Notes under the pieces: model-generated
What the model saw: the letters and a program-made list of their open reading frames with translations, nothing else
What the model was told of the DNA's origin: nothing
The model's database searches: none
From: a virus
DNA length: 21,922 nt
Reading direction: 5' to 3' (one strand)
Virus record (IMG/VR): IMGVR_UViG_3300019776_000116
Coordinates: 1-21,922 of that record
Translations under genes and position numbers: made by a program
Shown: piece by piece, positions 13,815-18,341 of the stretch
Layout: each line of letters opens with the position of its first letter
Numbering within the stretch: the stretch's first letter is position 1

Positions 13815-15296
13815 ATGACTATCCCGGCAAGCGACATTGTTGTTGTCAATCCCGGCGTCGTTGGTTCCGGCGGTAATCCGCTGGCCCTGAACGGCGTCAT
13901 TCTCTCCAAAAATACTTTGCTCCCGACCGGCGGCGTGCGTTCATTCGCCAGCGCCGACGCCGTGAGTGCGTTTTTTGGCCCGTCTTCCACGGAATACGCC
14001 CTTGCCCAAACTTACTTTTTGGGCTTTGACAATTCCACGATCAAACCGGGCACGCTGTATTTCGCCCCGTTTGTGGAAGCCGACCGCGCCGCCTGGTTGC
14101 AATCGGGTTCCCTGTCCGGCATGACCCTGGCGCAACTACAAGCCCTGTCCGGCGTGCTGACTGTGACCGTCGACGGCACGGCCTTTACGTCTTCAAGCAT
14201 CAACCTCGCAACGGCAACCAGTTTCAGCAATGCGGCGACGATGATTGCCGCGGCCTTCACTGGCACCGGCAAACCGACTTGCGCCTGGAATGCGGTCAAC
14301 AGCACCTTCACGCTAAACAGCGTCACGACCGGCGCATCCTCGACAATCGGCTATGCAACCGGCACCCTGTCCGCGGGCCTCAAGCTGACCAGCGCGACCG
14401 GCGCCATCCTGTCCCAAGGTGACATTGCGGACACCCCGGCCACGGCCATGGATGCGGTCAAGGCGGCGACTCAGAATTGGGTCGACTTCATGACGATTTG
14501 GGAGCCTTTGCTTGCCGACAAAGAACTCTTTGCCGAATGGACGAACGCGCAAAATCAGCGTTACATGTACGTTTGCTGGGACACGGACGCGCAAGCAATC
14601 GTCAACGGTTCGACTACCTGTTTTGGTGCGGTTGCCAAGTCCCTGGGCTACGACGGCGTCGTGCCGGTTTACAACACTGTGACCCTGGCCGCGTTCATGC
14701 TGGGCACCGTGGCGTCGATTGACTTTAGCCGCCTGAATGGCCGCATCACTTCGGCTTTCAAATCGCAAAGCGGATTCGTGCCCACTGTGACCGACCAGCA
14801 AATCGCAGCCAATCTGCTGGCGAACGGTTACAGCTTTTACGGCTCCTATGCGACCGCAAACGATCAATTCAATTTCCTTTACAACGGCCAAATGTCCGGC
14901 AAGTGGAAATGGGTTGATACCTTTGTCGACCAAGTCTATTTGAACAGTCAATTCCAATTGGCCTTGCTTTCGCTGCTGACAAGCGTTAAGTCGATTCCTT
15001 ACAACGAATCCGGCTATTCGCTGATTCGTGCGGCCATGATCGACCCAATTTCCGCCGGTATCAACTTTGGCAGCATTCGCACCGGCATTACCATGTCGGC
15101 GTCGCAAAAAGCCCAAGTGAATCAGGCGGCCGGTTTGGACGTTTCGACCATCATTGAGCAACAAGGCTATTACCTGCAAATTCTCGACCCTGGTGCGCAA
15201 GTGCGCGGCAATCGCGGAACGCCGGTAATCAACTTTTGGTACACCGACGGCGGCGCGGTCCAAAAGATCACCGTCGCATCTATTGACATCATGTAA
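13815..15296 (+). CDS. Tail sheath protein (DUF3383)
   Basis: The protein has 493 residues and a clear ribosome binding site GAGGTGA. It opens TIPASDIVVVNPGVVGSGGN and shows DUF3383 hallmarks such as WTNAQNQRYMYVCWDTD, FDRL-like strands around TVASIDFSRLNGR, and RAAMIDPISAGINFGSIRTG. The C-terminus NFWYTDGGAVQKITVASIDI forms the strand that links neighbouring sheath subunits in contractile tails. The presence of this gene defines the phage as contractile-tailed. Length matches the family. Confidence 0.92.
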   Translation: MTIPASDIVVVNPGVVGSGGNPLALNGVILSKNTLLPTGGVRSFASADAVSAFFGPSSTEYALAQTYFLGFDNSTIKPGTLYFAPFVEADRAAWLQSGSLSGMTLAQLQALSGVLTVTVDGTAFTSSSINLATATSFSNAATMIAAAFTGTGKPTCAWNAVNSTFTLNSVTTGASSTIGYATGTLSAGLKLTSATGAILSQGDIADTPATAMDAVKAATQNWVDFMTIWEPLLADKELFAEWTNAQNQRYMYVCWDTDAQAIVNGSTTCFGAVAKSLGYDGVVPVYNTVTLAAFMLGTVASIDFSRLNGRITSAFKSQSGFVPTVTDQQIAANLLANGYSFYGSYATANDQFNFLYNGQMSGKWKWVDTFVDQVYLNSQFQLALLSLLTSVKSIPYNESGYSLIRAAMIDPISAGINFGSIRTGITMSASQKAQVNQAAGLDVSTIIEQQGYYLQILDPGAQVRGNRGTPVINFWYTDGGAVQKITVASIDIM

Positions 15297-15305
15297 GGAA
15301 CAATC

Positions 15306-15743
15306 ATGGCTGATACCACAATCACCAGCGCGAACAGCGTTTTTACCATCGTGGTCGCGGGCTTGTTCCCGGCCCCGGTGCAGCTTCGCGGCTACGCCAG
15401 CGACAAGGCTTTCACCACGGAAGCCATTGACCTGGCCGAAGTCCAAATGGGCGTCGACGGTCGCATGACCGCCGGTTTCATTCCGAACCCGACGAAGCAA
15501 ACCGTTACGCTGCAGGCCGATAGCCCCAGCAAGGACATTTTCACCGCACTGATTCAGGCAATGAAGACGGCGCGGGAAGTGTTCTACATTTCCGGTTCAA
15601 TCGCGTTGCCTTCGACCGGCGAATCTTTCACGCTGACCCGCGGCATTCTCACGAATGCAAAGCAAATCCCGGACGCGCAAAAAGTTCTGCAGCCCGTGGA
15701 TTACGTCATTACCTGGGAAAGCGTGAACCGTTCGCTGCTGTAA
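15306..15743 (+). CDS. Tail tube protein
   Basis: The protein has 145 residues and AAGGAA overlapping the sheath stop as ribosome binding site. It follows the sheath, has the expected tube length, and is beta-rich with a central MGVDGRMTAGFIPNPTKQTV stretch and ending YVITWESVNRSLL. Similar proteins after DUF3383 sheaths are often labelled tail fibre in databases but correspond to the tube by position. The gene is followed by the structured leader of the chaperone gene. Confidence 0.82.
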   Translation: MADTTITSANSVFTIVVAGLFPAPVQLRGYASDKAFTTEAIDLAEVQMGVDGRMTAGFIPNPTKQTVTLQADSPSKDIFTALIQAMKTAREVFYISGSIALPSTGESFTLTRGILTNAKQIPDAQKVLQPVDYVITWESVNRSLL

Positions 15744-15758
15744 CAGGCGCACCAGTTA

Positions 15759-15852
15759 GCCCCCGGCAAGGCCCACAAAGCCGCTTTGCCCTCTCCCGAA
15801 GCACGCCGGGGGCACCTTAACACCACGGGAGAGGAATCACGATACGGAGAGG
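15759..15852 (+). promoter_or_regulatory. Candidate RNA pseudoknot with anti-Shine-Dalgarno segment
   Basis: Two perfect 9-bp inverted repeats interlock: GCCCCCGGC (15759-15767) with GCCGGGGGC (15805-15813), and CCTCTCCCG (15790-15798) with CGGGAGAGG (15826-15834). The order is stem 1, stem 2, stem 1, stem 2, the topology of an H-type pseudoknot with loops of 22, 6 and 12 bases; the first loop holds a mini-hairpin CAAAG-CCG-CTTTG (15776-15788). CCTCTCC (15790-15796) can also pair with the true ribosome binding site GGAGAGG (15846-15852) of the chaperone gene. The leader could therefore control chaperone translation. Confidence 0.65.
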
Positions 15853-15859
15853 TATCACA

Positions 15860-16318
15860 ATGGCACGCACGACAGCAAATTACACCATTCAAGACGAAGG
15901 CCGCGACCACGGTAAGGTTTTCGTTTTAACCGAACTACCCGCCAGCCGGGCGGAATCTTGGGCAATGCGGGCGCTCCTGGCCCTCATGTCAAGCGGCGTC
16001 GAAGTCCCGGAAGGGTTTGACCGCATGGGCATGGCTGGAATGGCGGAAGTCGGCATTCGTGCCCTATCCGGCCTCAAATGGGAAGTCGCGGAGCCATTGC
16101 TTGCGGAAATGTGGTCTTGCGTGCAAATCATGCCGGACCCCAGCAAACCGCACATTGTCCGAAATCTGATTGAAGAGGACATTGAAGAAATTTCGACCCG
16201 CGTGAAACTTCGCGCCGAAGTGTGGAAATTGCACACGGGTTTTTTGAAGGCCGTCGCCCCCTCAATCTCCGAAGGCTCCCCGGCGGCGGCCCGCAAAAAG
16301 GGTTCGCGGAATACTTGA
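15860..16318 (+). CDS. Tail assembly chaperone, short form (gpG analogue)
   Basis: The protein has 152 residues. It starts at ATG 15860 with GGAGAGG seven bases upstream. It opens with NYTIQDEGRDHGKVFVLTEL and contains PASRAESWAMRALLALMSSG, a pattern common in phage tail chaperones, and SRVKL-type helices near the C-terminus. It lies between tube and tape-measure genes, where nearly all long-tailed phages encode a chaperone pair that coats the tape measure protein during tube polymerisation. The end carries the frameshift site. Confidence 0.83.
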   Translation: MARTTANYTIQDEGRDHGKVFVLTELPASRAESWAMRALLALMSSGVEVPEGFDRMGMAGMAEVGIRALSGLKWEVAEPLLAEMWSCVQIMPDPSKPHIVRNLIEEDIEEISTRVKLRAEVWKLHTGFLKAVAPSISEGSPAAARKKGSRNT

Positions 16319-16467
16319 ACCTTTCGGCCGTTATCGGCACGTTGCTTTCCAAACGCATGGCAACGCTGCACGAATTGGATACGGTTTATGGGGTGCAAGA
16401 CGTCTACGATATGCTGGAAGTCATAACGGTAGATGACTACAATAACGCTTTGGCGAACCGGGAATAA
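15860..16467 (+). CDS. Tail assembly chaperone, -1 frameshift fusion (gpGT analogue)
   Basis: A -1 shift at C AAA AAG (16294-16300) would join the first 147 codons to a second frame running from 16300 to the TAA at 16465-16467, giving a 202-residue protein. The extension reads GFAEYLNLSAVIGTLLSKRM, then ATLHELDTVYGVQDVYDMLE and VITVDDYNNALANRE, which resembles the T-domain of other phages. The second frame has no plausible start with a ribosome binding site, consistent with expression only by shifting. Confidence 0.78.
16294..16321 (+). promoter_or_regulatory. Programmed -1 frameshift site
   Basis: The heptamer CAAAAAG is in phase as C AAA AAG, so both tRNAs on lysine codons 146-147 can slip back one base; the A-site re-pairing is perfect and the P-site re-pairs at two of three positions. 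GGTTC (16301-16305) and GAACC (16317-16321) can form a hairpin immediately downstream. The zero-frame stop follows at 16316. Confidence 0.7.
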
Positions 16468-16472
16468 TCCAC

Positions 16473-18341
16473 ATGGCTACAATCATCGACAGCTTGCTTG
16501 TAAAACTTGGGCTAGATTCTTCGGAATTTAGCGCGGGTAAGAACAAGGTCGACAAGGGCCTCAAGGATACCGGCGCCGAAGCCGATAAAGCCGGGGCGAA
16601 GCTCAAAAAATCGGGCAAGGACGGCGCCGAAGGTTTCGAGAATGTAGCCAAGAGCGCGACCAAATTCCTGGCAATCATTGGCGGCACCGTGGCCGTTAAG
16701 CGGTTCATTGAACAAACCGTCGAATCGTCCGCCACCCTCGACCGTCTTTCGCAAAATCTCAGTGCCAACGTGGCGACCGTGTCCGCCTGGTCCAATGCGG
16801 CCGAACTTGCCGGGGGTTCCGCGTCCGGGCTCCAAGGCACCATGGATATGCTCAGTAAGTCGCAAACGGAATTGCAGCTTACCGGGCAAAGCGGCCTTAT
16901 CCCCTATTTCTCCGCGCTGGGCTTGAGCCTGGCGGACACTCAAGGGAAAGCCAAACCGGTCAACGACTTGCTGCTGGAACTGTCTGACCGTTTCAGCAAA
17001 ATGGACCGCACCACGGCCAACAATATGGGCCGTATGATGGGCCTTGACCAAGGAACAATGCAACTTTTGCTAAAGGGGCGTTCCGAAGTTGAATTGATGA
17101 TTAAGCGGCAAAAGGAATTTGGCGCCGTCACGAAGCAACAGGCCGAAGAATCTAGCCGCCTCAAATTGGCAATGACTGACAGCCGCCAAAGTTTTGAAGC
17201 CTTCGGGCGCGAACTTTTGTCGGCCGCAACCCCAGCCATTGAAAAGCTATTTTCCATCATGGCCGATTTTGGCGCATGGATGCGGGAAAACAAGGAATTC
17301 GTTAACGCCTTCCTGACCATCATCGCGGTCGGCCTGGGTGCGATTGCCGCGGCAACAATCCCCATTAACCTGACTGTGGCCGCCGTCACCGGCCTGGCCG
17401 CGGCAATCGCATTGCTATATCAGGATTACCAGACATGGAAGCGCGGCGGGGAAAGTTTCATTGACTGGTCGAAATGGGAGCCCGGATTTAAGGCCGCTGG
17501 CGCCGGTATCCGCTGGCTCAAGGACTTGTTAAGCGACTTGGTTTATCGGGCGATTGCTGGCGCCGACGTCCTGTCCGCCGTGTGGAATCGTGATTGGGAT
17601 AGGGTCAAATTTGCAGCGGGGGAATTCATGAACGGCAACGGCAAGACTTACGGCGAATCTCCGCCCCCTGCACCACCCGCCACGGCCCCTACGTCTTCGG
17701 CTGGGGGTAAGGGTGCGTCGAACCAAGAGCAAGCCGCCATGGCCTATTTTCAGGCCCAAGGTTGGTCGCGTGAGCAAGCGGCCGGACTGGCGGCCAATAT
17801 CAAACTGGAATCGGCTTTTAACGCTGGGGCTGTGGGCGACAACGGCAAGGCATACGGCATTGCACAATGGCACCCTGACCGGCAAGCCGAATTCCAAAAG
17901 AAGTTTGGAAAACCCATTCAAGGGTCGACGCTTGAAGAGCAAATGGCCTTCATGCACTATGAATTGACCCAAGGCAATGAGCGTGCCGCCGGGGCCAAAT
18001 TGCGCGGAACAAGTAGCGCCGCCGAAGCCGCCGCCGCGGTATCCATGCACTATGAACGCCCGGCCGACAGAGCGGGCGAAGCGGCGAAGCGCGGACAAAT
18101 GGCCCTTGCCATGCTTGGGGGCGTGCCTGGGGCCTCTCAGGCGGCCGCCGGGGCTGGTGCTGGTCAAGTTGCCCAAGGCAACCTTGCGGGCGCCCCTGGG
18201 GCCGGTAGTCGAAGCGTTGAAACCCACATTGGAGAGGTCAAAGTTTATTCAGCGGCCACGGATGCGAACGGCATCGCCAAAGACATGGGCAAGTCGCTGG
18301 ATTACCTTTTTACATCGCAAGCAAATTACGGGCTGAATTGA
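16473..18341 (+). CDS. Tape measure protein with C-terminal tail lysozyme domain
   Basis: The protein has 622 residues. Residues 1-270 are helical, opening MATIIDSLLVKLGLDSSEFS then GKNKVDKGLKDTG as in many tape measures. A hydrophobic stretch at 278-316 could insert in the inner membrane. A Pro/Ala/Ser linker (395-412) leads to a lysozyme-like domain at about 417-542: MAYFQAQGWSREQAAGLAAN, IKLESAFN with probable catalytic E446, YGIAQWH (461-467) and EEQMAFMHYEL, matching the phage tail lysozyme family that cuts peptidoglycan during DNA entry. Using about 1.5 angstrom per residue, the tail would be short (below 100 nm). Confidence 0.92.
   Translation: MATIIDSLLVKLGLDSSEFSAGKNKVDKGLKDTGAEADKAGAKLKKSGKDGAEGFENVAKSATKFLAIIGGTVAVKRFIEQTVESSATLDRLSQNLSANVATVSAWSNAAELAGGSASGLQGTMDMLSKSQTELQLTGQSGLIPYFSALGLSLADTQGKAKPVNDLLLELSDRFSKMDRTTANNMGRMMGLDQGTMQLLLKGRSEVELMIKRQKEFGAVTKQQAEESSRLKLAMTDSRQSFEAFGRELLSAATPAIEKLFSIMADFGAWMRENKEFVNAFLTIIAVGLGAIAAATIPINLTVAAVTGLAAAIALLYQDYQTWKRGGESFIDWSKWEPGFKAAGAGIRWLKDLLSDLVYRAIAGADVLSAVWNRDWDRVKFAAGEFMNGNGKTYGESPPPAPPATAPTSSAGGKGASNQEQAAMAYFQAQGWSREQAAGLAANIKLESAFNAGAVGDNGKAYGIAQWHPDRQAEFQKKFGKPIQGSTLEEQMAFMHYELTQGNERAAGAKLRGTSSAAEAAAAVSMHYERPADRAGEAAKRGQMALAMLGGVPGASQAAAGAGAGQVAQGNLAGAPGAGSRSVETHIGEVKVYSAATDANGIAKDMGKSLDYLFTSQANYGLN

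Follow-up and report, generated by a model that had tools for sequence, protein, structure and literature searches.

Phages need their tail proteins in fixed proportions, and the known RNA-level device for setting them in this part of the genome is a −1 frameshift inside the tail assembly chaperone gene. On the IncB and IncIα plasmids, the repZ pseudoknot activates translation, is controlled by an antisense RNA, and responds to the ribosomes of an upstream open reading frame (ORF). Translational riboswitches of the preQ1 classes hide the Shine-Dalgarno (SD) sequence in a pseudoknot (reviewed in PMC11625349), and the mRNA of the Helicobacter pylori aapA3 type I toxin forms mutually exclusive anti-SD/SD pairings, possibly one after another during transcription (PMC6733600). 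The locus that we describe here, at a structural gene junction in a virus, probably encodes a conserved cis-acting brake on tail chaperone translation, with a single anti-SD loop that would pair with either of two SD copies.

The window, by which we mean the whole 21,922-nt stretch of DNA analyzed, belongs to a source record that the IMG/VR record check gives as a virus. Within its tail module, a 116-nt gap separates a tail-tube-type gene from a tail-assembly-chaperone gene, and Pfam and PHROG matches bear out the preliminary description on this placement. The upstream gene (15306..15743, plus strand) encodes a tail tube-type structural protein of 145 aa (Pfam E217_Gp32, 1.5e-26; PHROG 1964, 4.4e-53) that is presumably the tail tube, judging from its family and its position immediately downstream of the sheath gene (13815-15296; DUF3383). 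The downstream gene (15860..16318, plus strand) encodes a tail assembly chaperone of 152 aa (PHROG 1932, 8.4e-48), and the tape measure gene lies at 16473-18341. Toward its 3′ end the chaperone gene contains a canonical −1 slippery site, G_GGU_UUU, at 16237-16243, and the −1 frame is open at 16222-16467 (PHROG 3976), which is the usual G/GT-type tail chaperone frameshift.

The gap was previously described as holding two perfect 9-bp stems in pseudoknot order, and both are present (15759-15767 with 15805-15813; 15790-15798 with 15826-15834). No other interlocked pair occurs among the window's 38 perfect 9-bp inverted repeats (arms within 100 nt), and when the gap was dinucleotide-shuffled 20,000 times, none of the shuffles produced such a pair (at least one 9-bp repeat arose in 195). 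The reported duplication of GGAGAGG and of the sequence after it is likewise real, as a direct repeat (GGAGAGGAATCACGAT at 15828 and GGAGAGGTATCACAAT at 15846) with 88% identity and 18-nt spacing. Folded without pseudoknots, the gap has a minimum free energy (MFE) of −46.7 kcal/mol (z = −2.7; 0/200 shuffles as low). Chance does not account for the interlocked repeats or for the two GGAGAGG copies.

IMG/VR scans returned 47 related loci with the chaperone as query and 50 with the tube protein, a profile scan kept 80 of 537, and we inspected the gap in every related locus that keeps the gene order. After removal of identical copies, 29 loci carried the element or a reduced form of it; L234 and L241 were added afterwards. 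The alignment used for covariation comprised 22 distinct gaps aligned with MAFFT on sequence only and not fitted to structure (a hand-picked five-sequence MAFFT alignment that included L234 and L241 was misaligned and is left out of the results). Unguided, RNAalifold recovered three helices from the 22 gaps: P1, which is the first of the two interlocked stems, and two hairpins, P3 and P4. When P1, a small hairpin P2, P3, P4 and the pairing of the P3 loop with the second SD copy (SD2) are taken together, 91.0% of alignment cells are paired, against 78.7% in shuffles, which leave relatedness in place, and 40-49% in slid controls, which remove it. Double changes affect 17 pairs of this set, with 56 double-change cells versus 15.4 in shuffles; for P3 and P4 alone, 97.8% of cells are paired and the double-change cells number 34 versus 8.1.

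Because P3 and P4 touch invariant anchors, their arms can also be read at fixed offsets without any structure fitting. Read in this way, the 14 distinct arm pairs of P3 are paired at 89% of positions (65% in shuffles) and the 15 of P4 at 77% (53% in shuffles), with 0/5000 shuffles as high in either case. The same reading of the flanks of the first SD copy (SD1) gave no pairing (34% versus 33% in shuffles; 1964/5000 as high). These results place SD2 within a conserved hairpin and SD1 outside any. Compensatory changes in the aligned relatives strongly support P1, P3 and P4, and since they exceed those of the controls, the gap contains a conserved structured RNA element, larger than the two-stem layout first proposed.

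All parts of the element lie on the plus strand. P1 is the outer stem and encloses P2 and P3; its perfect 9-bp arms (15759..15767 and 15805..15813) show compensatory changes in relatives, and it starts 4-15 nt past the tube stop codon across members. P2 (15770..15772 with 15780..15782) is a small, variable hairpin taken from the MFE fold; it is weakly supported and missing in some members, such as L039. P3 (15783..15788 with 15797..15802) is paired in 98.5% of cells, with changes on both sides in 4/6 pairs and 0/5000 shuffles equal to it, and it presents the nearly invariant apical loop CCCUCUCC (15789..15796), the anti-SD. SD1, GGAGAGG at 15828..15834, has no conserved stem and is complementary to 15790-15796, a pairing that would form a pseudoknot with P1. 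P4 (15841..15845 with 15852..15856) is paired in 96.9% of cells, with changes on both sides in 4/5 pairs, and its arms vary widely among members (GAUAC/GUAUC, GAUUC/GAAUC, GUUAC/GUAAC, GAUGC/GCAUU, GACC/GGUC). SD2, GGAGAGG at 15846..15852, gives its first six bases to the P4 hexaloop GGAGAG (15846-15851) and its last G to the first position of the 3′ arm. The chaperone AUG at 15860 lies 8 nt past the end of the hexaloop and 7 nt past the end of the SD2 heptamer. The conserved spacing to this AUG upholds the earlier naming of SD2 as the chaperone's true SD; the site is not free, however, but sits in P4, a hairpin that the preliminary description had overlooked. The mechanism therefore shifts from a decoy set against a free site to one anti-SD loop facing one free copy and one hairpin-loop copy.

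The second interlocked stem requires a different kind of argument. Compensatory changes had been proposed as the check on both stems, and whereas P1 does covary, the second is nearly invariant. Its pairs 15797-15798/15826-15827 compete with P3 and are not conserved, so that the transferable pairing is one of 7 bp (15790-15796/15828-15834), the 7/9 bp that are conserved and compatible with P3. Covariation can barely test or prove a pairing with so little variation. CCTCTCC was correctly described as complementary to either GGAGAGG copy, and the loop and both copies are conserved in relatives; they are also the only strongly conserved blocks in the alignment. Counted over 28 distinct members, the loop reads CCCTCTCC (CCCUCUCC as RNA) in 24 and keeps the core CTCTCC (CUCUCC) in 27, while SD1 is GGAGAG in 27 and SD2 in 26 (GGAGAA in L033, GGGGAG in L035). 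The loop core stays constant while the P3 stem sequence varies, and in members without the element the SDs are different ones (GGGG, GGAGG), which argues that GGAGAG is kept for its match to the loop. Two members change both partners jointly: L033 has loop UUCUCC with SD2 GGAGAA, and L241 has loop ACUCUCC with SDs GGAGAGA and GGAGAGU, so that the seventh pair is lost on both sides. When the energies of loops against downstream regions were compared across members, a locus's own loop was clearly best for L241 only. As these energies are not decisive, the case for pairing is made by complementarity and joint conservation. The P3 loop CCUCUCC, complementary to the SD GGAGAGG of the next gene, has the defining feature of an SD-sequestering sequence, and on this comparative evidence it likely pairs with the SD copies.

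Three loci (L224, L227 and L231) show the same hairpin-in-hairpin layout with a different matching pair (loop UUUCCUCCUUUC, SD AAAAGGGG), a version that may be independent or may have diverged far; UUUCCUCCUUUC, in the chaperone upstream region, resembles the 3′ end of 16S rRNA. In L237 and L240 the two sides again change in a matching way: both GGAGAG copies are missing and the loop is CCGUCUCC.

As for the brake's direction and trigger, the bait role of SD1, the competition, the coupling and the purpose, we infer the following scheme. The P3 loop would be a built-in anti-SD that pairs one SD copy at a time, with SD1 as a competitor for it. With the loop on SD1, the pseudoknot would be closed and SD2 guarded by the weak P4 stem only, giving low to moderate translation; with the loop on SD2, a P3-P4 kissing contact would block initiation. 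Duplex estimates are approximately −13 kcal/mol for the loop with SD1 in most members (pseudoknot cost ignored), −8.5 kcal/mol for the loop with the SD2 hexaloop (kissing cost ignored), −7 to −11 kcal/mol for an SD with the 16S end, and −4 kcal/mol for P4. By these estimates the loop would normally rest on SD1, leaving SD2 to P4. Ribosomes finishing the tube gene just ahead of P1 could disturb P1, which would couple production of the chaperone to that of the tube; the purpose would be to keep the tube protein in fixed excess. In the fullest version, a single loop would select either a free decoy SD or, through a kissing contact, the true SD in the loop of a second hairpin, and a bistable fold coupled to upstream translation would set the tube-to-chaperone ratio as a new class of translational control RNA in phages. 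This is a tentative proposal that we regard as possible but doubtful.

A covariance model found one significant copy of the element per record in 21/25 records, always at the tube-chaperone junction; a second match in one record was insignificant (E = 0.755). By DNA, INPHARED gave no match, and by protein it gave distant relatives of <60% identity only, with the element missing in the ten gaps of these named phages that were inspected. On the chaperone tree, many forks of which are weakly supported, the carriers group together with scattered absences (L034, L037, L038). This scatter suggests that the element can be lost, and the absence from three near relatives makes it dispensable.

Several loci carry additional sequence at the junction. 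In L008, L009 and L022, P1-P3 are kept ~500 nt upstream of the chaperone and a single SD replaces SD1 and P4, an arrangement that the braking model can explain only if the insertions happened recently. What is inserted there, between P1 and the chaperone start, are small ORFs in antisense orientation (144 and 84 aa). In L029 (2800-3000; contig shared with L125), a 66-aa ORF starts behind SD2 and a retained P4 at the usual start-codon distance, and the chaperone starts directly after its stop codon, so that the element now appears to serve another gene, this 66-aa ORF; the retained spacing counts in favor of the braking model. Across the loci compared, the tube-chaperone gap is a repeated insertion site. 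Lysozyme-like ORFs, named by eye, occur between tube and chaperone in L230 and L263 (~900-1500) and after the tube gene in L169-L171.

Candidates elsewhere were rejected. The pattern CCTCTCC..GGAGAGG..GGAGAGG matches many low-complexity places, and L097 scores weakly and looks accidental. In L072 (6266-6380, minus strand), a hairpin loop with CCUCUCC and two GGAGAGG copies precede a 67-aa ORF, but we did not count it as a second family because in its sole relative, L190, the hairpin is retained but the loop is not. That ORF adjoins a GroES-like gene (named by eye).

More distant phages have an intrinsic terminator at this same gap (computed for LZ35; by eye in Amjad_SA and L243), and a U-run directly follows P1 in L129 and L041, with U-rich sequence there in L024, L026 and L035. 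The gap thus seems to be a general site for lowering expression past the tube gene, and P1 could be a degenerate or conditional terminator, or a 3′ stabilizer of the tube mRNA, that steps down the mRNA while anti-SD pairing is secondary. We consider this unlikely: in most members, including the window (ACCUUAACAC), U accounts for 0-4 of the ten bases that follow P1, the window lacks the GC-rich hairpin with an immediate U-tract that defines an intrinsic terminator, a terminator scan found none in the window or L129, and the conserved loop, the SD copies and P4 would be left unexplained. Less likely still is that the RNA is a protein operator, with P3 and P4 as binding hairpins for the chaperone or tube protein (autogenously) or for host CsrA. 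Invariant loops on covarying stems, as seen here, are typical of protein-binding hairpins, and GGA motifs presented by hairpin loops at an 18-nt spacing, that of the two copies, would suit CsrA geometry; against this, each conserved loop is complementary to the other, a match for which a protein site would have no need, and SD1 lies outside any hairpin. The loop consensus of a CsrA operator, ANGGA, is also absent, since the A and C of ACGGA sit in the P4 stem. The least probable account, in which SD1 and SD2 are a tandem landing or standby site that raises ribosome recruitment while P3 keeps SD1 tidy or is a by-product, draws on the similar binding of SD1 and SD2 to the 16S end in duplex estimates and on the fixed position of SD1 11-22 nt (most often 18) upstream, but a pure 16S constraint would permit other SD variants, whereas the two copies both fit the P3 loop; P3 is itself strongly selected, and a start codon stands behind SD1 in only 5/27 members. 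With a suitably spaced start codon in those five alone, one of them in frame, we also rejected the idea that a leader peptide begins behind SD1.

If the braking model is true, these phages have a second RNA-level device for tail protein proportions, a compact one (~100 nt) at the start of the chaperone gene. The SDs are identical, but one is free and the other sits in a hairpin, which provides a natural internal control. Setting a single anti-SD loop against a duplicated SD is an unusual arrangement, and one that could also be of use in synthetic biology.

By comparison of sequences, then, the element would act like known SD-hiding RNAs, in a layout for which we found no precedent: no described example of it turned up in the literature searched, as the preliminary description had supposed, and Rfam 15 matched nothing in this part of the window even at a permissive E = 5, nor any of seven divergent members at the gathering threshold. 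Like the intrinsic terminators of Obolenskvirus LZ35 and other phages, it places a strong hairpin that may lower downstream expression at the tube-chaperone site; unlike them, it has no U-tract in most members and has an extra conserved loop, SD copies and P4. It shares with preQ1-type riboswitches an upstream loop that would pair with the SD region for control in cis, but it has two SD copies, of which the true one is displayed by a separate hairpin, and neither a ligand-binding core recognizable in the alignment nor an Rfam riboswitch match. As in repZ, a hairpin loop would pair near a downstream ribosome binding site under the possible influence of ribosomes on an upstream ORF, yet the repZ pseudoknot turns translation on under an antisense RNA, whereas the loop here matches the SD itself. 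The proposed mutually exclusive anti-SD/SD pairings within one mRNA recall aapA3. There, several anti-SDs compete for one SD at a toxin start, whereas this element has a single anti-SD loop for two SDs and lies inside a phage structural operon, at the junction of two of its genes.
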